Shown piece by piece: positions 7,287 through 22,486 of a DNA stretch of 41,243 nt. The stretch's first letter is position 1, and every line of letters begins with the position of its first letter. The notes under the pieces were generated by a model, which had not been told where the DNA came from, ran no database searches, and saw nothing but the letters and a program-made list of their open reading frames with translations. Source of the DNA: a virus; IMG/VR virus record IMGVR_UViG_3300020411_000820, positions 1 to 41,243 of that record; one strand, written 5' to 3'. A program made the translations under genes and the position numbers.

Positions 7287-7997
7287 CTTTACTTCTCCTG
7301 TTACATGGTCATACTCTCCATCTCTAAGGATGCGAGTTAAACGTGCAGTTAATACAGCATCAGCATAAGTTTTCTTCTTCTTAACATAGGCAGCGTGAAC
7401 CTTAGCCCACATTTCTTCAAGGGTTTCAGAATCACCTAATAGTTTTCCTGCTGTTACTGGCCCCACTCCTACTAATCCTTCTACATTATCTGTCTTGTCA
7501 CCACTCAAAGTTTGAATCATCCAGTGTCTATCAGCTTTCTTACGAGTAACTAATTCAAGATCATCATTAGCCAAGAGGGTACAAGGTACACCTCGCATGT
7601 CCTTATCAGGTGAAACAATTACTGGATCATCGTACTTCTGTCCTGTTGCAAGCAGCCCCATAACATCATCACCTTCCAAGCCATCGAAACTAATGGAGTG
7701 AAATTCTTTTGCGACTCTCTCTCTTATATTCTTAAGGCCAAGAGGCTTACGTTTACCTAGTCGATTAGCTTTGTAGTCTTGATAGATTCCATGTCTGAAG
7801 GTGGGATAATCAGAGAAGCACATGATTGCTTGACCTGGGCTGATGATCTGATACTGAGCAACACGATCTTCAATCAGTTGCATTGCATCACGTTCATCTA
7901 AGTGAAGAGTATGAAGGTGTTCATCCCATCTGACATCACATTCACATGCACAACAGGAGGAATAAATCAGCCAGTCAGCATCAATTAATAAAGTCAT
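7263..7997 (-). CDS. T7 gp6-like 5'-3' exonuclease
   Basis: 244 residues (T7 gp6 is 300). Flap/5'-nuclease metal-binding motifs are present in order: LLIDADWLIY at the N-terminus, FRHGIYQDYKANR, GLEGDDVMGLLAT, VIVSPDKDMRG, then a helix-hairpin-helix-type segment GDKTDNVEGLVGVGPVTAGK. It should remove RNA primers and degrade host DNA to recycle nucleotides. The start overlaps the primase-helicase stop by 4 bases; in T7 the DNA polymerase gene lies between these two. Confidence 0.92.
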   Translation of the reverse strand: MTLLIDADWLIYSSCCACECDVRWDEHLHTLHLDERDAMQLIEDRVAQYQIISPGQAIMCFSDYPTFRHGIYQDYKANRLGKRKPLGLKNIRERVAKEFHSISFDGLEGDDVMGLLATGQKYDDPVIVSPDKDMRGVPCTLLANDDLELVTRKKADRHWMIQTLSGDKTDNVEGLVGVGPVTAGKLLGDSETLEEMWAKVHAAYVKKKKTYADAVLTARLTRILRDGEYDHVTGEVKLWEPSRF

Positions 7998-9607
7998 AGT
8001 GCGAATAGAGGTAGTTTTAATCGACCTGTTTGCTGGTCGTAGAGCAGCTTATCCATAGGGCCAGTAACCCCACTAAAGCGATTTTTTAATAGGCGCAACT
8101 GGAGTTCTGATCTCTCAGCTGGGTCGCCTTGTTGGTTTCTTTCAGCAGCTAGAACCAAGTCAGATAACTGAGCCACGGAATGTGATGAGCGCAGGTGGGA
8201 GAGAGAAACCTGAGTTCCTTCTTCATGTCCTTTGCCTTCAGGTCGTCTCAAGTGTGAGACAACTATGAGTCCAACGCCTGTATTTTCTACTACTTGTCGC
8301 AGCTTGGTACAGGTAACATCAAGTGCTCGTCTCTCATCTAGATCACTGATACCAGAAATAACTATGGTCAAGTGGTCAAGGATGACAACATCAACACCTT
8401 CAGCTGTAGCTAGATATTGAATCTGTTCAACTAAACGATCAGGATCTATTGAACCAAAGTGGTCATATAAAAAGAGACGACCAGTACCAAGCAATCGGTC
8501 AAAGGCCATCTTTAATTCTTCATCTTCAGCAAGGTTATCCTCAAAGTGAAGAGGTCTTGATAACTCAACTCCGATTATTCCTTGCAGTGTTCTTTGAATA
8601 CTTTCTTCGAGTGCTATGTACCCCACTTTCATTTGATTCCTTAGAAAGTGATGAGCTAATTCTCTGCACATAGAACTCTTACCTGTTCCTGATCCTGCGC
8701 AGACAGTTACCATCTCACCCTTGCGGTATCCTTTCGTTGCATCGTTCAACTTAGGCCAAGGGTATTCACAAACTGAGGCAGCCCCTGGTTTTATCAGTGC
8801 CTCCCACTGGTCAGCGGCTTGTATGATTGAATCAGGTCTTGCAGGTGTTGCTTTCCAAAGCAAGTCCCTAAGGTCATCCCCCTCTCCTGCGAGGAGCATT
8901 TCATTAGCATCTTTTCTTGGTAATCGACAGATAGCTGCTTTACCAAGAGGTAAGACTTCAAGTGCTTTCTCGGCAGCAGCCATGCCAGGCTCATCCGAAT
9001 CCAAGCAAAGAACAATCCGAACAAATGTGTTTAACCATTTCTGTACTTCAGGAGTGGATAAATACTTTTTAACTGATTGCGCTCCGTTTGGCAGTGACAC
9101 AACAGGGAACTTGTTACCTTGTACTTGAGAGACTGACATTGCATCTATCTCTCCTTCAGTAATAACAACAAAAGTATTACCTTGGTTTGTCTGTCTCCAT
9201 GTGTGCTGAGAGAAGAGCATCATCTTGCTGGTATCACCTAGCCAAATGAATTTCTTATCTTTAAATCTCACATGTTGAGCACATGGTCTGCCTAAATGAT
9301 CGAAGTAATTAGCAACTTGAACAGGTTGATTGTGATACTCAGCTATGCCATAGGGAAAACGACAAACAGTTTCTTCTGTGATGCCACGCTTCTTTAGTGC
9401 AGCTGGTTTGATGAACTTGATTAGTGGTGATGTCTGTCTTGGTGGTGATGCTGTTGTCATTGGTCTTGGTTTTTTTTCTTTTGATGGTTGGTATTGGTAG
9501 TCGCATCCAAAGCAATGAGCATGTCCGTCATCAAAGACTGCAAGGTTATCCTTACTGCCACATTCAGGGCAAGGCTCATGCCTTAGGTACTTGCTTTTGC
9601 TTTTCAT
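7994..9607 (-). CDS. T7 gp4-like primase-helicase
   Basis: 537 residues (T7 gp4 is 566). Zinc-ribbon cysteines are at 13, 16, 32 and 35 (CPEC, CFGC), the TOPRIM motif TEGEIDAMS starts at about residue 150, and a RecA-type helicase domain has Walker A GSGTGKS with K310 and Walker B VVILDHLT. It unwinds the fork and lays primers. GGGAG stands upstream of the ATG. The protein ends in a neutral, hydrophobic GRLKLPLFAL and lacks the acidic, Phe-ended tail with which T7 gp4 docks on its DNA polymerase. That agrees with the absence of a phage polymerase gene. Confidence 0.95.
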   Translation of the reverse strand: MKSKSKYLRHEPCPECGSKDNLAVFDDGHAHCFGCDYQYQPSKEKKPRPMTTASPPRQTSPLIKFIKPAALKKRGITEETVCRFPYGIAEYHNQPVQVANYFDHLGRPCAQHVRFKDKKFIWLGDTSKMMLFSQHTWRQTNQGNTFVVITEGEIDAMSVSQVQGNKFPVVSLPNGAQSVKKYLSTPEVQKWLNTFVRIVLCLDSDEPGMAAAEKALEVLPLGKAAICRLPRKDANEMLLAGEGDDLRDLLWKATPARPDSIIQAADQWEALIKPGAASVCEYPWPKLNDATKGYRKGEMVTVCAGSGTGKSSMCRELAHHFLRNQMKVGYIALEESIQRTLQGIIGVELSRPLHFEDNLAEDEELKMAFDRLLGTGRLFLYDHFGSIDPDRLVEQIQYLATAEGVDVVILDHLTIVISGISDLDERRALDVTCTKLRQVVENTGVGLIVVSHLRRPEGKGHEEGTQVSLSHLRSSHSVAQLSDLVLAAERNQQGDPAERSELQLRLLKNRFSGVTGPMDKLLYDQQTGRLKLPLFAL

Positions 9608-10360: not shown

Positions 10361-10865
10361 GCTTATGAATGATGGCAGCTTCAGGTTGGATCTTGATACC
10401 AACTCCAAAGTTTCCTGAGTAACCAGAACAACGTAAAAAGACTTGGCCTTCTGTACCTGGCCCCATCTTATTCACTGCTTGCTTCTCTTCCTCAGTCATC
10501 GGTTGACCTTGAGCATTCTGTAGAACAGGAGGTCTGTTAGTCCATTGCTTTCCTTGCTGGTTAATACCTCCGACTTTCATCTTGGTCTTAACTGCAAAAA
10601 CTGGCTTACCATCACGCTCTTCATATGACCATGGTAGAGCTGCAAGTTTGAACTTCTTATCAGGTTCAGCTGCTTTGAGTTGAGCTTTCCATCTATCTAA
10701 CAGTCCAGTTAATTGCTCTTCAATTTGTGTTGCCTTATCAGCTGGGATTAGGCATGTAACTTTCCATACCCCTGGCGTTTCAAATTTAGTATCTGCCTCA
10801 ACTAACCAGGCAAATTCAAATTCGCATCGAGGTGTTGTGACGTTTAGGATTTCTGATTTAATCAT
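10257..10865 (-). CDS. T7 gp2.5-like single-stranded DNA-binding protein
   Basis: 202 residues (T7 gp2.5 is 232). The OB-fold-like body includes RCEFEFAWLVEADTKFETPG, VWKVTCLIP, VFAVKTKMKVGGIN and GVGIKIQPEAAII. The tail (QAEEPVACAAPAVSSGDEF) is mildly acidic and ends in Phe, like T7 gp2.5, whose terminal Phe contacts the replication enzymes. It lies between RNA polymerase and endonuclease I as in T7, coupled to the polymerase gene through ATGA. Confidence 0.88.
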   Translation of the reverse strand: MIKSEILNVTTPRCEFEFAWLVEADTKFETPGVWKVTCLIPADKATQIEEQLTGLLDRWKAQLKAAEPDKKFKLAALPWSYEERDGKPVFAVKTKMKVGGINQQGKQWTNRPPVLQNAQGQPMTEEEKQAVNKMGPGTEGQVFLRCSGYSGNFGVGIKIQPEAAIIHKHVEYSKSATSYGFETQAEEPVACAAPAVSSGDEF

Positions 10866-13231
10866 GTGATGAAATAGGTTGATGATTTTGTGATTGTTGG
10901 ATCTAACTCACCGAGTTCAGGCTCAGGAGGTAGATCCTTTTTGTCTTGGATTTGTGATTCGAGCCTTGATTTAATTTGTGATAGCCAGTCTGTTGAATAC
11001 AGATCAGCAAAGCTATGCCTAACAGAATCCCTTAGCTTGCTCATGCTTGCAGGATCGGTGGCAAAGCAATCATGTACACCTCCTATGTTTATGGTGGGTT
11101 CTCTCTTTCTAGCATGGACAATTGCCATTGAGTAGTGAGATGAATCAAAACTGTGAAGGATATTTGCAGTCAAACCATTTGCCATCCGAGTCTTGTCTAG
11201 GCCTACGGTTTCAACTTCTGTCCGTATATCAAGAGAGACATCTGAGAGATATCTAAGACGAATCCTAGATTCTCTTTGATTTTGGTAGCGCTGTTCTACG
11301 AGTAACCCACTAGGGGATCTCCATTGCAGCGGCTTGTTCTCTTTACCAGCTCTTAGACCTATAGCTTTGAAATAATTCATAGCATTTACAGCTGGTGCAA
11401 TTACCTTGACTGATTCCTTATGCAAGATGTTTGCCATGAAGTGCATGGTTGTCATGCATCCCTTCTGAACAGTCCATGATCCATTCCCATACATATCCTT
11501 AGCCCTCTTCTGTGCCCAGTCATAAGCGTAGTAATAGAACGCTGTTCGACTGGCTGCATAGGGCGTGGTCATTACGCAAGGCTTGGCTAGTGACCGATCA
11601 GGTTGCAGCATCAGCCACTTCCTAGCTCGTTCATCAGTGCAATCTCTTAGATGTTCATTGACTTTGGTAATGACAGTCGCATAGATATCTTGAGGTCTAT
11701 CACTTGGATAAAGATTAACTTCAGATGCAAGTGATTTGCTCCTTAATATTGCTGCGAAATGTTGGATACCTGAGCACGTGCAGTCCAGCATTATGGGCAG
11801 GGCACATTCATACTCCCATCCATGTCTTTGGAAGTTGGAATACTCACGACAAAAAGCTAAGAAACTCCAAGGTTTATCAGCTCTCATCCAGAACTCAGCA
11901 TTAATCCAAGGATCATTCCCAGCTCCACAGATGAGCTGTTCTCTTTCCTTTACCCAGTCAATGCGAGTCTGCCAGTCTGACTTAAGACCATAGAGATTAG
12001 CTCCATGTATTCTTAGCCAGTCAACATGACTTTCTTCAGTGATCGGCTTTGCATTTGCAAATAGAAGCAACGACCTAGATACATCATTGCCTTGTGGATT
12101 TAGATAGGGAGGTCGGTAATAAAATCTCCCTCGGAAATCCATAGAGGTAGGAAAGAATATCTCTTCCTCCTCTTGGAACCTACGAGCAACCCAAAGAATC
12201 TTTGCGTTTGCTATGCGTGTGTTCCTAGTTCGATCATTCTTTTCATGGAGAATCTTTGCAGTCTTTCTCCACTTGAGTACACCTAAGTCTTCCTCATCCA
12301 AGTGTTTAGGGTAAGGAGGAATAGGCCATCCATCTCTAGGTAAGAGGCAGCCAACTTCTATGTTGTTGTCATAGGCATGTGTTACCTGTTCCAACATCCA
12401 TGTGTTTACTTTCCAAGCAACAGACTGATGTATGTTTGCTGCCTTATAGAAAAGTTCATCACCATTTGAGTCGGCTTTAATGATCTCGTTATTACTCTTG
12501 AATAATTTCAAGGGTGTCTTTGTGTAATAACCTCCGTTACTTGGTGAAGACCAAGGCTTAGGAGGTATCACCATAGGCAAGTAGTTAGGTGTCATTAACT
12601 CTTGCTGTTCTTTAACCTCATTGATCCATGCCATGCACTCATCAGTTGCTTTAACAACACGCTGCTTTTTGTGAGGTAGATCTTCTCTAACTATTTGAAT
12701 GAGTCCAGTCTCTTTAGCGATGAGATTGACTAGGAATAAACCTGATGCAATCTTCTCTCTTGAAGTCCAGATCTCTGTTTGCTGCATCCTTCTGATGGCA
12801 GCCATCTTATGAGCCTGACGACTACGACCCTTCTTAAACCTGAATAACTCTTGAGTAGTAGCTCTATCCAACATCGTTTCAATCCATAGCTTGTCAGCTA
12901 CATCCATTGAAATACTGTGAAGAGTGGGACAAGCAGATAGAGAATCTATTACAGTTCTTATGCTTGCTGCTGCTACCTGCTGAGGTGGCAAGTGGGTGAT
13001 GGGTAGTAGTTGGGCAAAGCTAACACCTGCTTTGCCTGACTCAATCCTTTTTCTTACTGCCCTTAGGTGGACAACGATTTGGTCTACACCATAGGCAGAT
13101 AAAGCCTCTCCCCATTTAGAGAGAGACTCCATCTTTTTCTTTTGCTGGTTGTGTGTGATGAGTCGAACTCTGTCGCACCCCAGCGTTAGCATCTCTCTTT
13201 CGAGTGCTAATTGCTTGGCAAGTTTGTTCAT
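10862..13231 (-). CDS. T7-like single-subunit RNA polymerase
   Basis: 789 residues from ATG 13231; a TTG at 13261 would add ten. It is shorter than T7 RNAP (883). Catalytic landmarks by T7 comparison: motif A DCTCSGIQHF with D483 (T7 D537), motif B with R546, K550 and Y558 (T7 R627, K631, Y639; the Gly after Tyr is Ala here), motif C VHDCFAT with D721 (T7 D812). The specificity-loop region (RESRIRLRYLSDVSLDIR) differs from T7, so promoters will differ. The C-terminus ends STYFIT. It should transcribe the late plus-strand genes. It follows the small early genes and is probably made from the host-driven early mRNA. Confidence 0.97.
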   Translation of the reverse strand: MNKLAKQLALEREMLTLGCDRVRLITHNQQKKKMESLSKWGEALSAYGVDQIVVHLRAVRKRIESGKAGVSFAQLLPITHLPPQQVAAASIRTVIDSLSACPTLHSISMDVADKLWIETMLDRATTQELFRFKKGRSRQAHKMAAIRRMQQTEIWTSREKIASGLFLVNLIAKETGLIQIVREDLPHKKQRVVKATDECMAWINEVKEQQELMTPNYLPMVIPPKPWSSPSNGGYYTKTPLKLFKSNNEIIKADSNGDELFYKAANIHQSVAWKVNTWMLEQVTHAYDNNIEVGCLLPRDGWPIPPYPKHLDEEDLGVLKWRKTAKILHEKNDRTRNTRIANAKILWVARRFQEEEEIFFPTSMDFRGRFYYRPPYLNPQGNDVSRSLLLFANAKPITEESHVDWLRIHGANLYGLKSDWQTRIDWVKEREQLICGAGNDPWINAEFWMRADKPWSFLAFCREYSNFQRHGWEYECALPIMLDCTCSGIQHFAAILRSKSLASEVNLYPSDRPQDIYATVITKVNEHLRDCTDERARKWLMLQPDRSLAKPCVMTTPYAASRTAFYYYAYDWAQKRAKDMYGNGSWTVQKGCMTTMHFMANILHKESVKVIAPAVNAMNYFKAIGLRAGKENKPLQWRSPSGLLVEQRYQNQRESRIRLRYLSDVSLDIRTEVETVGLDKTRMANGLTANILHSFDSSHYSMAIVHARKREPTINIGGVHDCFATDPASMSKLRDSVRHSFADLYSTDWLSQIKSRLESQIQDKKDLPPEPELGELDPTITKSSTYFIT

Positions 13232-13264
13232 CTGAATACCAGAGTCTTTCTCTGAACTCAAGAT

Positions 13265-13797: not shown

Positions 13798-13963
13798 CTC
13801 TTTGTGGTGGGTTTTCTAATAAGTAAGAACCAAACTCACAACAAACAATGATCTGTTGTGAGCTGGGTTCTGTCTTGAAGTAAGAGCGATGCCAGTTACG
13901 GTATAACTCATAGAGTTTTTTATCTCTAGTGAATTTGCTAGAGATGTACTCTTCATTCTTCAT
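13790..13963 (-). CDS. Small early protein
   Basis: 57 residues from the ATG at 13963, which overlaps the end of the preceding gene by 11 bases; longer in-frame starts lie within that gene. It is rich in Lys, Arg, Tyr and Trp (FTRDKKLYELYRNWHRSYFK) and ends EFGSYLLENPPQRDD. Its last codons contain leader copy A, so the Pro-Pro-Gln-Arg residues are encoded by ACCCACCACAAAGAG. No family recognised. Confidence 0.55.
   Translation of the reverse strand: MKNEEYISSKFTRDKKLYELYRNWHRSYFKTEPSSQQIIVCCEFGSYLLENPPQRDD
13804..13871 (-). promoter_or_regulatory. Early leader element, copy A
   Basis: On the minus strand: a two-tier hairpin (outer agaacc 13826-13831 with ggttct 13866-13871, inner ctcacaaca 13835-13843 with tgttgtgag 13854-13862), then ACCCACCAC (complement of 13804-13812), then AAAGAG and ATG at 13797. 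It lies wholly inside the upstream coding sequence. It shares the stem, ACCCACCAC, ribosome site, start layout with copies B-D. Confidence 0.7.
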
Positions 13964-14201
13964 AGTCGTTAAACAACCAGTCATCTTGACGTTTGCCTTT
14001 GATTCCTGCGATGAGGTCATGTGCAGATAGTCTGCACTCTTCCACAATATGCTGAGGTAACTCTGCTCGCAATCTTTCTACAATCTTTGACATCTTCTCA
14101 CGTGTCTCAGGGCTGCGACTAGTTTCCATGCGTGACCAGCACTCAACTAGCAAAGCCTTGTTACTTTCGAGAACATGTTGATGGTGTTTCATTGCTCCCA
14201 T
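13953..14201 (-). CDS. Small helical early protein
   Basis: 82 residues from ATG 14201; a second ATG at 14192 sits on the upstream stop (ATGA) behind GGGAG and would give 79. It is mostly helical and charged (SRSPETREKMSKIVERLRAE, HIVEECRLSAHDLIAGIKGK) and ends in an acidic DDWLFNDYEE. No family recognised. It is one of a run of overlapping minus-strand early genes. Confidence 0.6.
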   Translation of the reverse strand: MGAMKHHQHVLESNKALLVECWSRMETSRSPETREKMSKIVERLRAELPQHIVEECRLSAHDLIAGIKGKRQDDWLFNDYEE

Positions 14202-14335
14202 TGTTTCTCCATGTTTAAACGTCTTTGAATAAGAGTCTCACCTATTGGTGAGTTCTTGATCCCATTGGATAAGGAAGAAAAAACCCAGCACCCCGCTAAT
14301 AAAGCGAGGGCCGAGTAAATAAGTAAACGATTCAT
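14189..14335 (-). CDS. 48-residue membrane protein or lipoprotein
   Basis: Starts on ATGA overlapping the previous stop and ends overlapping the next gene. The N-terminus (MNRLLIYSALALLAGCWVFS) is a signal anchor with a lipobox-like Leu-Ala-Gly-Cys (Cys16), followed by a short polar segment (IQRRLNMEKQWEQ). Size and lipobox recall small outer-membrane spanin lipoproteins, though an early position is unusual for lysis genes. It may instead be an early membrane protein acting on the host. Confidence 0.55.
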   Translation of the reverse strand: MNRLLIYSALALLAGCWVFSSLSNGIKNSPIGETLIQRRLNMEKQWEQ

Positions 14336-14580
14336 TTGTTAGTAGGTACAAGAGATAGAACTTCTTGCTTAGCTTGGCCAAAGAATTTAATCAATTCGGC
14401 CCAGTATTGAGGGCAGTCAATCATATAAAGATTGTGCCACTCATCAGCATGTAAAGCCCAGCGATTAGCCCAGTCTCTTTGATAGGTAGCCCAGCTGATT
14501 AGCTCGCTATCTCTATCTTCAAGAGCTTTCTTTAGTTCCCTGTTTTCTTCTAGCAATTGAGCGTTTGTTTTTCTTGTCAT
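14332..14580 (-). CDS. Coiled-coil small early protein
   Basis: 82 residues. The N-terminal half is a charged coiled coil (NAQLLEENRELKKALEDRDS), the C-terminal half aromatic (YQRDWANRWALHADEWHNLY, YWAELIKFFGQAKQ). The ATG is preceded by leader copy B (ACCCACCAC, then AAAGGAAC). Its TGA overlaps the start of the 48-residue gene. Function unknown; it could be a host-takeover protein. Confidence 0.6.
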   Translation of the reverse strand: MTRKTNAQLLEENRELKKALEDRDSELISWATYQRDWANRWALHADEWHNLYMIDCPQYWAELIKFFGQAKQEVLSLVPTNK

Positions 14581-14593
14581 TTGATGTTCCTTT

Positions 14594-14739
14594 GTGGTGG
14601 GTTGGTAGGCTTCAAGGTTGCAACTTCCATTAGACCTAAAAGGAATTGCATGAGATCACCCATGCTGGAGTTTTAAAGTTCGTACGCTTGAAGCCAGTGA
14701 GGGATTGAGTCCCTCAGTCTGCCCAATAGTCAGGGCAGA
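14594..14739 (-). promoter_or_regulatory. Early leader element, copy B, with upstream hairpins
   Basis: On the minus strand: hairpin tctgccc/gggcaga (14718-14724 with 14733-14739), hairpin tgaggga/tccctca (14698-14704 with 14710-14716), a 9-bp long-range pairing ggcttcaag/cttgaagcc (14608-14616 with 14687-14695), ACCCACCAC (complement of 14594-14602), AAAGGAAC, then ATG 14580. I see no convincing gene between 14581 and 14748. Confidence 0.65.
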
Positions 14740-14748
14740 GAGAGAAAG

Positions 14749-14868
14749 TCATAGACTGTCATAAATTCTTTGTGGGCAATTAGTCCACGTTCTTTTTATG
14801 ACCGTCCATCCAAGTTCTAATAAAACTGGGATAAGTTTTGGATCATCAATGTAAGTTGAATAATTCAT
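14749..14868 (-). CDS. 39-residue early peptide
   Basis: A short ORF starting on TAATG, sharing a base with the stop of the 55-residue gene. Sequence character: STYIDDPKLIPVLLELGWTV, then a basic, aromatic end with one Cys (KRTWTNCPQRIY). It is coupled to the gene before it and followed by tandem hairpins. Only the coupling and reasonable composition support it. Function unknown. Confidence 0.45.
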   Translation of the reverse strand: MNYSTYIDDPKLIPVLLELGWTVIKRTWTNCPQRIYDSL

Positions 14869-15035
14869 TAGTTTTTAACTATGTTGATAGGCTTTGACTT
14901 ATCAAGTTTTAAATCTTCTAAGTCTTTCTTTGTTATTACTTCCTTCATATTAGAAGTAACATCATCAACAGAATTAATCTCTTTGAGATCTACTTCCTTG
15001 GAAGAATCTCCAAAAGCAAAAACTACTGAAGGCAT
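14868..15035 (-). CDS. 55-residue early protein
   Basis: Starts at ATG 15035 after leader copy C (ACCCACCAC, then ATAGGAAA). Acidic and Ser/Val-rich N-terminal half (PSVVFAFGDSSKEVDLKEIN), Lys-rich helix near the end (KEVITKKDLEDLKLDKSK). No family recognised. A strong leader and coupling to a second small ORF make it likely to be translated. Small acidic early proteins of phages often bind host enzymes, but no target can be named. Confidence 0.6.
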   Translation of the reverse strand: MPSVVFAFGDSSKEVDLKEINSVDDVTSNMKEVITKKDLEDLKLDKSKPINIVKN

Positions 15036-15049
15036 AATTAATTTCCTAT

Positions 15050-15107
15050 GTGGTGGGTTAGTCCCTCAGTTAAGAGGGAAGAGCTAGGTCAGGGTTTGCA
15101 CCTGACC
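15050..15107 (-). promoter_or_regulatory. Early leader element, copy C, with tandem hairpins
   Basis: On the minus strand: stem ggtcagg/cctgacc (15087-15093 with 15101-15107, 7-base loop), stem tccctc/gaggga (15062-15067 with 15074-15079, 6-base loop), then ACCCACCAC (complement of 15050-15058), AGGA and ATG 15035. It occupies the whole gap between the 201-residue and 55-residue genes, so it could also act as a processing or partial termination site. Confidence 0.7.
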
Positions 15108-15115
15108 CCCCGCTT

Positions 15116-15721
15116 TTACGGATTAGCTAATAGGAGATTATAAGACGCATAATTGAACATTCTTCTTTTAAATTCTTTTTGTTCTTTGTTCCATTCAGGC
15201 AAATGATTCAGAACATGACTCCAAGAATCTCTAAATGTTTTCTTACATGCCTTGCACCTAACAATGGGAACCATCTCCCCAAATTCTTTATCCTTTGCTT
15301 GATATTTAACCATGCAAAGCTCAAACATATGGGGATCTTTTCCATTGAAAAATGCTTTTCCTTCTCCCATTTCAGGAAGTTTCAAGCCGTGGTAACAGGG
15401 AACATTGATTAATAATCCTGTGTCATGCCTTAATTGGATTAGACCTGGATGTTCTTCTGTTCCCTTGTATTCGTATGGTTCCCTAATGTTTTCATCTTCA
15501 GGATCTACATAGTCATGTAGTGGTGCAGACCTGTCGTAGTCGTCATAGCTGCCAACCTGCAAATGATCTTCATCAGGGAAAGGCAAACGAAACCACATAT
15601 TCTTGAAACTGTCTTCATAGTCAACCTTGAAGCGATCTTCAAAGCGTAAGTAGTAGCAACTTTCACAGGTTCCAATTTTGATTTGTTCCCCTGTGCTCTT
15701 TAATCGTGCATACTCTCCCAT
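15116..15721 (-). CDS. First early gene: Cys-rich protein
   Basis: 201 residues. Two CxxC pairs (TCESCYYLRF at ~18-27 and VRCKACKKTF at ~155-164) could bind zinc. Between them is an acidic, aromatic region (SYDDYDRSAPLHDYVDPEDE); the C-terminus is helical and charged (EWNKEQKEFKRRMFNYASYN). It is the promoter-proximal gene of the leftward early unit, preceded by leader copy D and a sigma70 promoter, so it should be made first after infection. Host takeover is a reasonable inference. No family recognised beyond a vague memory of cyanophage hypothetical proteins. Confidence 0.7.
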   Translation of the reverse strand: MGEYARLKSTGEQIKIGTCESCYYLRFEDRFKVDYEDSFKNMWFRLPFPDEDHLQVGSYDDYDRSAPLHDYVDPEDENIREPYEYKGTEEHPGLIQLRHDTGLLINVPCYHGLKLPEMGEGKAFFNGKDPHMFELCMVKYQAKDKEFGEMVPIVRCKACKKTFRDSWSHVLNHLPEWNKEQKEFKRRMFNYASYNLLLANP

Positions 15722-15733
15722 GATTGTCTCCTA

Positions 15734-15769
15734 GTGGTGGGTAGTATCGGAGAATATTCCCCCGATACT
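15734..15769 (-). promoter_or_regulatory. Early leader element, copy D, with 5' stem-loop
   Basis: On the minus strand: a perfect 8-bp stem (agtatcgg/ccgatact, 15743-15750 with 15762-15769, 11-base loop), then immediately ACCCACCAC (complement of 15734-15742), TAGGAG and ATG 15721. The stem begins within a few bases of the predicted transcript start, so it should cap the early mRNA. Confidence 0.75.
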
Positions 15770-15772
15770 TCT

Positions 15773-15801
15773 ATGATAGTCCATTCAGATTCTTTTGACA
15801 A
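15773..15801 (-). promoter_or_regulatory. Host sigma70-type early promoter
   Basis: Reading leftward: -35 TTGTCA (complement of 15796-15801), a 17-base spacer and -10 TATCAT (complement of 15773-15778), each one or two bases from consensus. The predicted start is about 15766. It would drive the minus-strand early genes up to and including RNA polymerase by host RNA polymerase, as in T7. Confidence 0.65.
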
Positions 15802-16138
15802 TGGGCGACTAAAAAGAAACATTCAAAGAGCAGTCCCTGACTATCAATATTCATCACAGATTGAAGGGGGTGGCCCCTGTGTAATTAATTAAGGATAGGC
15901 ATGGGGGGTGCAGCCTCATTCCCTAATAGCGTATAAGCCCCTCAGATTTTTTCGGTAAAAATCTAAGAATTATCTTAGATAGGGCGGTGGGATATCTCTC
16001 TTCATATATGGACAGACAGTGAGGGACTGTTATCTTTCGTTTATTGATGCTCTAATTACTCCCCATCACCCGTTAGAGTATCAAAGAAGGGAGTTCTCCT
16101 GTGGTGGGTAGGGCTCCCGCACCAATTGCATAAGGATT
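15802..16138. other. Divergent intergenic control region
   Basis: No gene is supported in these ~340 bases. Contents: an 8-bp perfect palindrome atctaaga/tcttagat (15961-15968 with 15973-15980); a 5-bp hairpin acagt/actgt (16016-16020 with 16026-16030); a 12-bp stem with one G-U pair, ttgatgctctaa/ttagagtatcaa (16044-16055 with 16073-16084), whose loop holds CACCCGTTA; an oligo-T stretch at 15947-15952; and an orphan ACCCACCAC leader motif. It separates leftward early genes from rightward late genes and is the best place for late promoters and possibly a replication origin. Confidence 0.6.
16101..16109 (-). promoter_or_regulatory. Orphan copy E of the ACCCACCAC leader motif
   Basis: On the minus strand ACCCACCAC is followed by AGGAG, as in copy D, but no ATG-led gene follows. 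The nearest frames (a TTG ORF of three codons and an ATG ORF of four) are trivial. It may mark a lost gene, or act in another role just before the packaging genes. A 5-bp inverted repeat gggag/ctccc (16089-16093 with 16114-16118) encloses it. Confidence 0.5.
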
Positions 16139-16366
16139 ATGAAATCGACAGATGTATTAGCGGATGTACATGAGTTATTAGCACAATGGTGCTTAGAGAA
16201 ATTGAAGGAAGGGAATGTAAATGCAGCAGATCTGAATATTATTAGGCAGTTTCTGAAAGATAATCAGATCAGTGCGCAACCAGTAGAGGAAACAAGCTTT
16301 GGGGAGTTGGCTAAAGCATTACCTGAGATAGAAAATGTAGTGCAGTTACAGAAGAAGAGAGCATAA
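16139..16366 (+). CDS. Small terminase subunit (gp18-like)
   Basis: 75 residues, a helical acidic protein (DVHELLAQWCLEKLKEGN, ADLNIIRQFLKDNQI) ending in a basic LQKKRA. Position directly before the large terminase, with no spacing, and size (T7 gp18 is 89 residues) identify it. It should recognise concatemeric DNA for packaging. AAGGA lies just before the ATG. It is the first gene of the rightward late unit. Confidence 0.8.
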   Translation: MKSTDVLADVHELLAQWCLEKLKEGNVNAADLNIIRQFLKDNQISAQPVEETSFGELAKALPEIENVVQLQKKRA

Positions 16367-20605: not shown

Positions 20606-20613
20606 TACCCACC

Positions 20614-21402
20614 ATGCCAGAAGCACTCACTATTAAAGACGCTCCAACACCAGCAGTCGCACCAGAAGAATCAACCGAAACCACAGAAGAATCTGGGCTG
20701 CTTGCTGGTAAGTACAAATCGCAGGAGGAGTTGGAGAAAGGTTATCTCGAACTCCAAAAGCAATTAGGAAAAGGAGAACCCGCAGAAGGTTCTGAAATTA
20801 CTGATTCAGAACCAGAAGAAACTTCTGAACCTTCTAGTGCAACAGAGATTTATGGTGAATATATAGGTAGCAAGTTTGATGAGGCTGGTATTGATTACGA
20901 AGGGATGAATACCAGATGGCAAGAATCAGGTCAATTAACAGATGATGATTACAAGGAATTAGGAGACGCAGGTTTTAGCCGTGAGATGGTCGAGGCTTAT
21001 CTTCAGGGTATTCAATTTAATGCTCAAAGAGATACTGAGTTACAGCAAGGACAAGTTAAAGAGATTCAAGATATGTATGGAGGCGAAGCTGCTTATGGAG
21101 AAATGATTGGTTGGGCAGCTGGAGTCTTAACAGATAGTGAAAAAGCTGCCTTTGATATGGCCATCAAAAATCCAAATTATGACATGGTAAAACTTGCTGT
21201 AGCTGGGTTACATGCTCGTTATATGGCAGAAGGGAATAAGGAGCCAAAGCTAGTCAGTGGAAGGACTAACAGAAGATCAACTAAAGCTAAGTTTGAATCA
21301 ATGGCTCAGGTCGTTGCTGCTATGAATGATCCTCTTTATGCTTCAGATCCTGCATTTAGAAAACAAGTGGAAGAGAAACTTTCTAGGTCAAATGTCATTT
21401 AA
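20614..21402 (+). CDS. Scaffolding protein (gp9-like)
   Basis: 262 residues (T7 gp9 is 307). Very acidic, helical and low in aromatics at the N-terminus (APEESTETTEESGLLAGKY, KSQEELEKGYLELQKQLGKG), with a basic C-terminus (SGRTNRRSTKAKFESM, then DPAFRKQVEEKLSRS), as expected for an internal scaffold whose basic end contacts the capsid. It lies between portal and capsid. The ATG directly follows ACCCACC (20607-20613), and no Shine-Dalgarno is visible. Confidence 0.92.
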   Translation: MPEALTIKDAPTPAVAPEESTETTEESGLLAGKYKSQEELEKGYLELQKQLGKGEPAEGSEITDSEPEETSEPSSATEIYGEYIGSKFDEAGIDYEGMNTRWQESGQLTDDDYKELGDAGFSREMVEAYLQGIQFNAQRDTELQQGQVKEIQDMYGGEAAYGEMIGWAAGVLTDSEKAAFDMAIKNPNYDMVKLAVAGLHARYMAEGNKEPKLVSGRTNRRSTKAKFESMAQVVAAMNDPLYASDPAFRKQVEEKLSRSNVI

Positions 21403-21412
21403 GAGTTATTAT

Positions 21413-21517
21413 TTAGATACCTAGACCTATTGACTGAAACTCTGGCCCGTTGCGACGGATACCCTTAGTGGAAGGAAGTGAGGTCAGGAAACCTTCTTTC
21501 TTTTTCTAGGTATTTAA
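21413..21517 (+). promoter_or_regulatory. Closed structured leader of the capsid gene
   Basis: A 13-bp stem with one G-U pair (21413-21425 with 21505-21517; core atacctaga/tctaggtat) encloses 79 bases and ends 3 bases before the capsid ATG. Inside: ccgt/acgg hairpin (21446-21449 with 21454-21457), gacct/aggtc (21424-21428 with 21481-21485, competing with the outer stem) and gaagg/ccttc (21471-21475 with 21492-21496). This is where T7 has its strongest late promoter and leader. It may stabilise or process the capsid mRNA. Confidence 0.6.
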
Positions 21518-21520
21518 TTT

Positions 21521-22486
21521 ATGTCGAACATGACCGTATCCAGGCTGGGCCTGGTTAACAATACGGGTAGTTCTTATGACGCTTTATTTTTAAAGGTCTT
21601 CTCTGGTGAGGTATTATCTGCCTTCCGTAAAGCTACCGTATTTGAGTCTCTGCACAATGTGAGGACAATCTCCTCAGGTAAGTCAGCACAATTCCCCATA
21701 ATTGGACTTAGCTCAACTTCCTATCACACTCCAGGAACACAGCTAACAGGTGCTGCCATCAAGCATGCTGAGGCTACCGTCAATATTGATGACAAGCTTG
21801 TTAGTCAGGTCTTTCTGGCTGACATTGACGAGGCTAAGAATCATTATGACGTGCGCTCTCAGTATTCAACTGAGATGGGTAACGCTCTGGCATACAAATT
21901 TGACCAGAACGTAGCTGCAACTATTGCACAAGCTGCAAGAACTTCAACTAACTTCAACACTGATCTTCCTGGTGGTACTCGTATCAAGATCGTTGCTGCA
22001 AACAAAGCAGCTGTAACAGGTGCAAACCTAGTTACTGCGCTATGGACAGCAGCCGAGAAGATGGATATCAACAATGTCCCTGAAGACAATCGTTATGTTG
22101 TTCTTGGCCCAACTGAATATTACAAGTTGGCTCAAACTACTGACGTACTCAACAGAGACTGGGGTGGATCTGGAGCATACGCAGATGGAACAGTCTTGAA
22201 GGTTGCTGGTATCAGTATCATCAAGTCCAACCATCTACCAACAACAAACAGATCAGCAGTAACAGGTGAGAACAACACTTATCACGCTGACTACACTGAC
22301 AACGTAGGTCTTGTCTTCAACAAGCAAGCAGTTGGTACTGTGAAGTTAATGGATCTGAAGATGGAGCAAACTGGTTCTGATGTTCATGCTTTATGGCAGG
22401 GAACATTCATGGTGGGTTCAATGGCTCACGGTACTGGCGTTCTACGTCCTGACTGTGCAGTTGAGATCTACTGGGCTACTAGCTAA
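21521..22486 (+). CDS. Major capsid protein (gp10-like)
   Basis: 321 residues (T7 gp10A is 345). HK97-fold T7-type capsid motifs: YDALFLKVFSGEVLSAFRKA, VRTISSGKSAQFPIIG, TVNIDDKLVSQVFLADIDEA, then VVLGPTEYYKLAQ and a C-terminal GTFMVGSMAHGTGVLRPDCA. It builds the icosahedral shell. The gene uses more C-ending codons (AAC, TTC, GAC, ATC) than its neighbours, typical of a very highly expressed gene. A strong terminator follows. I see no obvious slippery site for a T7-style gp10B. Confidence 0.96.
   Translation: MSNMTVSRLGLVNNTGSSYDALFLKVFSGEVLSAFRKATVFESLHNVRTISSGKSAQFPIIGLSSTSYHTPGTQLTGAAIKHAEATVNIDDKLVSQVFLADIDEAKNHYDVRSQYSTEMGNALAYKFDQNVAATIAQAARTSTNFNTDLPGGTRIKIVAANKAAVTGANLVTALWTAAEKMDINNVPEDNRYVVLGPTEYYKLAQTTDVLNRDWGGSGAYADGTVLKVAGISIIKSNHLPTTNRSAVTGENNTYHADYTDNVGLVFNKQAVGTVKLMDLKMEQTGSDVHALWQGTFMVGSMAHGTGVLRPDCAVEIYWATS

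Follow-up and report, generated by a model that had tools for sequence, protein, structure and literature searches.

A shared site, through which a single late RNA could silence them together, lies before the early genes of a marine T7-like phage. In the window, the 41,243-nucleotide stretch of viral DNA analysed here (IMG/VR record IMGVR_UViG_3300020411_000820), the nonamer ACCCACCAC precedes four leftward early genes. Comparison with related genomes makes it likely that this motif is the common target of one trans-acting antisense RNA element that switches off early translation. The element would be SL2, a hairpin in the leader of the rightward late operon, whose loop is complementary to the motif. 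Comparison shows the motif and where it sits, the hairpin, the RNA strand on which the hairpin is selected, and the joint variation of loop and leaders; on these grounds the pairing relationship of loop and leaders is well supported.

Rightward late transcription from upstream of the terminase genes would yield a 5′ leader that carries SL2. As late RNA builds up, the SL2 loop would pair with the single-stranded motif that adjoins the ribosome site on every leftward early mRNA, and this pairing would block ribosome entry and turn off early protein synthesis. We infer the RNA-RNA contact itself, repression as its outcome, the timing, and the promoter. Two hallmarks of an antisense regulator are present: above-chance complementarity at the ribosome-binding region, and a conserved RNA structure that presents the recognition sequence. 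A translational operator was among the readings offered in a preliminary description of this DNA; that was essentially right, but it missed the partner, a + strand hairpin with a complementary loop.

The window represents a T7-like phage. Its terminase genes, including that for the large subunit (TerL), run rightward from 16139, and genes for a T7-type RNA polymerase (10862-13261) and a primase-helicase (7994-9607) run leftward. By terminase and polymerase, the closest isolate is Prochlorococcus phage P-SCSP1u (OM416779), which shares the divergent layout (TerL 84% identical, RNA polymerase 64%). It also has SL2, with loop GTGGTGGGT, and early leaders ATCCACCAGGAG and ACCCACTAC. The OM416779 record annotates no element of the SL2 or leader type, and the accompanying paper, which describes the lineage as cyanopodoviruses without a DNA polymerase gene, does not mention promoters, terminators, or non-coding RNA (PMC9860041). 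For comparison, 80 relatives were identified by TerL, and further scans were pooled to give 131 non-redundant loci; these sequences share descent, so that the p-values below are approximate guides only. A scan of a viral collection for the motif plus a Shine-Dalgarno sequence returned mostly unrelated single matches.

The window has five exact copies of ACCCACCAC, every one on the − strand; chance alone would give 0.14, and in 100 shuffles the count never reached five. Four of them lie 6-14 nt ahead of early ATGs. The preliminary description had listed these four (starts 13797, 14580, 15035, and 15721), and each is indeed exact, with an AGGA/AAGAG purine tract 0-2 nt past the motif. The fifth, at 16101-16109, had been overlooked: no − strand gene follows it, and it lies in the interval that separates the promoter-like site of the leftward early genes (15801-15773) from the terminase genes. 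That promoter-like match is weak by itself, since the promoter scan gave fewer matches than scans of shuffled sequence.

A search of related phages, proposed in the same description, found the motif well represented: the 80 TerL relatives have 123 copies on the − (early) strand against two on the + strand. Most relatives have one copy about 260-390 nt upstream of TerL, within an SL2-type hairpin, and the others directly before early starts; the distance from motif to ATG in leaders ranges from 0 to 17 nt. Most of the targeted genes in relatives have no homologue among the early proteins of the window and are mostly unrelated to each other, which indicates that the site travels with the leader, not with the gene. 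In GC-rich relatives, the targeted genes include those for RNA polymerase and helicase.

Features of the early and late leaders in the window (energies refer to the duplex with the SL2 loop)
Feature	Position	Strand	Details
ACCCACCAC target site	13804-13812	−	exact; 6 nt before ATG 13797 (gene 13797-13483, 104 aa); loop duplex -19.0 kcal/mol
Long hairpin upstream of the 13804 site	13827-13870	−	14-bp and 6-bp helices; MFE -26.7, z -6.9
ACCCACCAC target site	14594-14602	−	exact; 13 nt before ATG 14580 (gene 14580-14332, 82 aa); loop duplex -19.6 kcal/mol
Inverted repeat GGCTTCAAG...CTTGAAGCC	14608-14695	−	9 bp, 70 nt apart; ends 5 nt before the 14594 motif; weak, z -0.8
ACCCACCAC target site	15050-15058	−	exact; 14 nt before ATG 15035 (gene 15035-14868, 55 aa); loop duplex -19.6 kcal/mol
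Hairpin TTCCCTC-TTAAC-TGAGGGA	15062-15080	−	directly before motif; recurs after the tRNA-like element in relatives
tRNA-like element	15082-15128	−	5-bp P1, P2 hairpin, 7-bp T-arm-like P3 with 7-nt loop TGCAAAC; 12 bp (5+7) if stacked; single copy in window
ACCCACCAC target site	15734-15742	−	exact; 12 nt before ATG 15721 (gene 15721-15116, 201 aa); loop duplex -21.1 kcal/mol
Hairpin GTATCGGGGGAATATTCTCCGATAC	15744-15768	−	predicted fold; predicted 5′ end of first early mRNA
Sigma70-like promoter TTGTCA-17-TATCAT, leftward early operon	15773-15801	−	region's best promoter-like match, 10/12; weak alone
Conserved promoter-like element CTCTTCATATATGGACAG	15998-16015	+	candidate late promoter; single copy in most related genomes
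SL1, first late-leader stem-loop	16044-16084	+	predicted fold; stem-loop visible at same place in several relatives
SL2 antisense hairpin GGGAGTTCT(CCTGTGGTGGGT)AGGGCTCCC	16089-16118	+	loop complementary to early leaders; covariation
Fifth ACCCACCAC copy	16101-16109	−	exact; complement of SL2 loop core GTGGTGGGT
Small terminase subunit (DNA_Packaging_2)	16139-16366	+	Pfam PF11123, 5.5e-20; first late-operon gene after SL2

Read as + strand RNA, the fifth copy lies within SL2: a 9-bp stem closing a 12-nt loop, CCUGUGGUGGGU, that is the complement of ACCCACCAC(AGG). The preliminary description had named lack of compensatory change as grounds against its own reading; the SL2 stem does covary. Across 26 distinct hairpins, 98.3% of the stem cells are paired on the + strand, eight of the nine pairs have changed on both sides, and the covariation score is 0.81 (0.38 when shuffled), with all five measures above all 500 shuffles. 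When the same stem is read as − strand RNA, only 80.8% of cells pair and the score falls to 0.58, because the G-U pairs of the + strand turn into A-C mismatches. In an unbiased count that weighted G-U and A-C equally, the first nine pairs of 38 distinct stems contain 60 G-U and 4 A-C combinations; without the two loop-closing pairs, the counts are 21 and 2. This asymmetry indicates that SL2 is selected as RNA of the + (late) strand; in that RNA, its loop is complementary to the early leaders. When the window is folded alone, the SL2 loop is predicted to be partly paired, with only 5 nt open.

SL2 ends 20 nt before the small terminase start in the window and 11-47 nt before the first + strand start in most relatives, where the small terminase gene is usually the first to follow. 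In three relatives (L081, L203, and L205), SL2 instead heads rightward genes with other genes between it and TerL (2-3 kb away in L205 and L081), which suggests that it is the leader of an operon, not of one gene; this separation in L081 and L205 rules out SL2 as part of the terminase small-subunit gene only. Nor is it only a terminator: at least five T residues within the next 10 nt follow just 23 of 67 hairpins. Upstream of SL2 are a conserved element, TTCTTCATATNTGGACAG, present in one copy per genome in most relatives, and the further stem-loop SL1. This candidate late promoter is single, with no further repeats within the genome. An Rfam search of the window and tRNA searches gave no match.

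Loop and leaders change together. The relatives fall into three loop classes, each changing along with its leaders. In L055/L278, the loop (written as its target sequence) and two early leaders all read ACCCGCCAC, and the relative L056 has ACCCACCAC throughout. In a second group (L072, L080, L082, L271-L274, L276, and L277), the loop is ACCCACTAC and the leaders end in ACTAC. Position 7 of the leader is T in 11/13 cases in ACCCACTAC-loop genomes versus 14/140 in ACCCACCAC-loop genomes (Fisher p 1.5e-8, approximate for such related sequences). Each of the two loop changes is of the kind that passage through a G-U intermediate would produce. Leaders with a single change are mostly G-U compatible (36/53), as against 13/33 for similar words elsewhere (p 0.014).

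The match between each loop and its own leaders is specific in position as well. In the 5 kb upstream of the hairpin there are 62 exact own-loop words, and every one precedes a start codon by 9-26 nt (motif start to ATG/GTG); outside leader zones the own-loop match rate is about 24 times lower. With at most one G-U allowed, the leaders of 43 genomes contain 85 matches; loops with permuted positions average 3.4, and no permutation out of 300 gives as many as 85. With duplex energies of -19.0 to -21.1 kcal/mol, the early leaders take the first four places among the window's 37 gene starts as partners of the loop. In the L064-L079 group, hairpin and leader motif are both absent from six of six genomes with long flanks. 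Over all genomes the co-occurrence of hairpin and leader is borderline (p 0.056), partly because the detector misses the P-SCSP1-type stem. A few genomes have a canonical SL2 with no leader match (L013, L019, and L052) or only one (L023 and L025); the loop may thus have host or other targets besides the early leaders.

Strong stems upstream of each of the four copies had been reported in the preliminary description. The 60 nt upstream of the motif bear this out at three sites (z -6.9, -4.0, and -2.7) but not at 14594 (z -0.8), where there is only a 9-bp inverted repeat. Among 57 distinct exact-motif leaders of relatives, the mean upstream z is -2.8, and 77% have z < -1. In 32 of these 57, the motif begins 0-4 nt after the end of the last helix, and the motif itself is mostly unpaired in predicted leader folds (mean 0.80). 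The stems probably define the mRNA 5′ end, protect it, and hold the motif in single-stranded form.

One type of leader contains a tRNA-like element made up of P1 (5 bp), a P2 hairpin, and P3, an arm of 7 bp with a T-loop-like heptamer, TTCAANN or TGCAAAC. Stacking of P1 on P3 would give 12 bp, like the tRNA acceptor plus T stem. After one further nucleotide comes a hairpin, TTCCCTC...GAGGGA, which was not a search criterion. In 117 relatives, 25 such elements are on the early − strand and 2 on the + strand; shuffled sequence gives 3. They were parsed by structure; a MAFFT alignment misaligned P1 and P2. The scan required pairing, so the variety of listed pairs is no independent proof of covariation. 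ARAGORN found no complete cloverleaf tRNA in the window or in nine relatives. Speculatively, host tRNA-processing enzymes may cut at the tRNA-like element in this one leader type.

Computed complementarity fits repression or activation alike, and we infer the direction. Pairing might be real but reversed or positive: the early leaders would act on the late leader, delaying terminase or late translation until early mRNAs decay, or pairing would protect or activate the early mRNAs. The short distance from SL2 to the first + strand start in most relatives (11-47 nt) would suit an action on late translation. Nevertheless, the site of every early leader falls in the ribosome-binding region, and pairing there ordinarily prevents initiation; also, SL2 is not tied to the terminase genes, as the intervening genes in L205 and L081 attest; we therefore regard reversal as rather improbable. 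Alternatively, ACCCACCAC might be bound as RNA by a phage or host protein, a translational repressor or enhancer, the fifth copy being a − strand decoy hairpin. A repeated, position-fixed, mostly unpaired RNA motif suits a protein operator too. However, the strand asymmetry of stem pairing rules out the − strand decoy: G-U pairs are tolerated only in + strand RNA, and in that RNA the loop complements the motif instead of repeating it. In addition, leader variants lean toward G-U-compatible changes, and no early promoter is apparent for − strand transcription of the fifth site, all of which leaves a protein operator distinctly unlikely.

Two further alternatives dispense with an RNA partner. 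Leaders between the early genes of T7 are processed by RNase III, and the preliminary description had suggested leaders of that type here; stems would then be the cut sites and the 9-mer incidental. Stems between early genes of a T7-like phage are common to both. Strong stems directly upstream in most leaders, and tRNA-like elements in about 25 leaders, would suit this reading; in the window, three of the four early genes have such a strong stem. Processing by some enzyme is plausible for the stems, many of which have a T-arm-like element. By itself, however, it does not explain the conserved 9-mer: the conserved part of these leaders, unlike those of T7, is an unpaired sequence with a matching antisense loop, far more conserved than the stems, which vary and are sometimes tRNA-like or, in some motif-bearing leaders, not strong at all. 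Processing or stability as the sole function is accordingly very unlikely. Finally, the motif might be a DNA element, either a T7-type RNA polymerase promoter or a repressor operator. The phage encodes such a polymerase, and ACCCACCACAAAGG slightly resembles the T3 promoter, ACCCTCACTAAAGG. But with a motif-to-ATG distance varying from 0 to 17 nt, transcripts would often start inside the gene, and no exact copy precedes the + strand late genes; these two observations rule out a phage RNA polymerase promoter. The compensatory, G-U-tolerant stem changes are moreover an RNA signature, and a DNA element of any kind is scarcely credible.

Antisense regulation of phage mRNA by phage-encoded RNA, as predicted for SL2, is known from c4 of P1 and P7, sar of P22, and OOP of lambda (reviewed in PMC12197685). 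Both c4 and sar prevent initiation by pairing close to the ribosome site, and the complementary sequences of c4 sit in RNA loops (PMC12197685). These RNAs each act on one main target, ant or cII (PMC12197685), whereas the single SL2 loop matches several unlinked early leaders. SL2 also differs in heading a late operon, and in belonging to T7-like cyanophage relatives. In the literature searched, which lay mostly outside subscription papers, we found no description of a one-to-many early/late antisense switch in T7-like phages, nor of a late-leader RNA aimed at a set of early leaders.

A closer parallel comes from mycobacteriophages of cluster K, in which a 13-bp start-associated sequence, GGGATAGGAGCCC (SAS/ESAS), precedes many gene starts; each of four K1 phages has one reverse SAS copy without a gene start, and its authors did not decide between an RNA and a protein partner (PMC3203893). 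The sequence was described in 2011, and papers of 2024-2025 still call its role unknown. Like ACCCACCAC, SAS is a short repeat at many starts of non-homologous genes, largely in one orientation and often with inverted repeats upstream; in K1 phages its single reverse copy sits in a hairpin loop. Unlike ACCCACCAC, it overlaps the Shine-Dalgarno sequence itself, and its phages are temperate siphoviruses of actinobacteria. No sequence relation was found, and ACCCACCAC, which differs from GGGATAGGAGCCC, is not a member of the SAS family; the two are compared as designs only.

As a design, the likeness noted in the preliminary description proved apt: of the checked genomes, eight have an exact reverse copy, and in all eight it sits in a hairpin loop, namely in Adephagia, CrimD, and Anaya (loop of a hairpin of about 20 bp) and in five further phages. 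In Adephagia the copy falls between genes 92 and 93 (position 58682), the interval to which published RNA-seq assigns the onset of late transcription. In Ekdilam and DarthP, an altered loop would pair via a one-nucleotide bulge; the Ekdilam leaders did not change with it and remain GGGATAGGAG. Neither an exact anti-SAS loop nor an exact reverse copy is present in the examined parts of SirPhilip, Keshu, and Pixie. This suggests convergent use of the same design in cluster K, although the parallel is not uniform. It is quite possible, if short of probable, that unrelated lytic and temperate phages independently evolved a late-leader antisense hairpin that shuts down the early programme, and that cyanophage early mRNAs are also trimmed by host tRNA-processing enzymes at the tRNA-like element.

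The proposed switch would add a layer of control to that of RNA polymerase replacement, and its elements are found in phages related to an abundant Prochlorococcus phage lineage. Moreover, the SL2 model provides a concrete, testable answer to the role of the mycobacteriophage start-associated sequences.

The sole reverse copy of the start-associated sequence (SAS, a short repeat at many gene starts) in the cluster K mycobacteriophages (L306-L323) lies in a hairpin loop within the late-promoter interval. This loop is changed in Ekdilam and DarthP and replaced or lost in SirPhilip; a search of parts of the Keshu and Pixie genomes for the hairpin loop did not find it.

SL2, the hairpin heading the late operon, has a loop complementary to the motif repeated before early genes. 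Three relatives (L019, L014, and L017) retain the SL2 loop, yet have few ACCCACCAC leaders; a distinct repeated sequence, AGGTNCTACCRACATG, occurs in their early leaders. The L064-L079 group has neither SL2 nor the leader motif; the late promoter-like element is conserved there. Another long stem, AAGCCATTAT...ATAATGGCTT, lies upstream of the small terminase gene in this group.

Features outside SL2
Feature	Genome	Position	Strand	Remark
tRNA T-arm-like three-helix element	window	15082-15128	−	precedes early leader
ACCCACCAT	window	20607-20615	+	overlaps start codon (20614) of head assembly/scaffold gene
Major capsid gene leader	window	21416-21521	+	complementary ends, inner hairpin
Major capsid gene leader	L202	10345-10438		complementary ends, inner hairpin

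The T-arm-like element also precedes early leaders in about 24 relatives; the window's copy had no Rfam match and was not called by a tRNA search. The major capsid gene leader, arranged alike in Prochlorococcus phage P-SCSP1u, is probably a structured 5' UTR: its complementary ends, ACCTAGA and TCTAGGT, lie far apart and enclose the hairpin. Finally, the SL2 loop is predicted to pair with ACCCACCAT at -15.8 kcal/mol, and the scaffold gene start may be an additional SL2 target, or a chance match.
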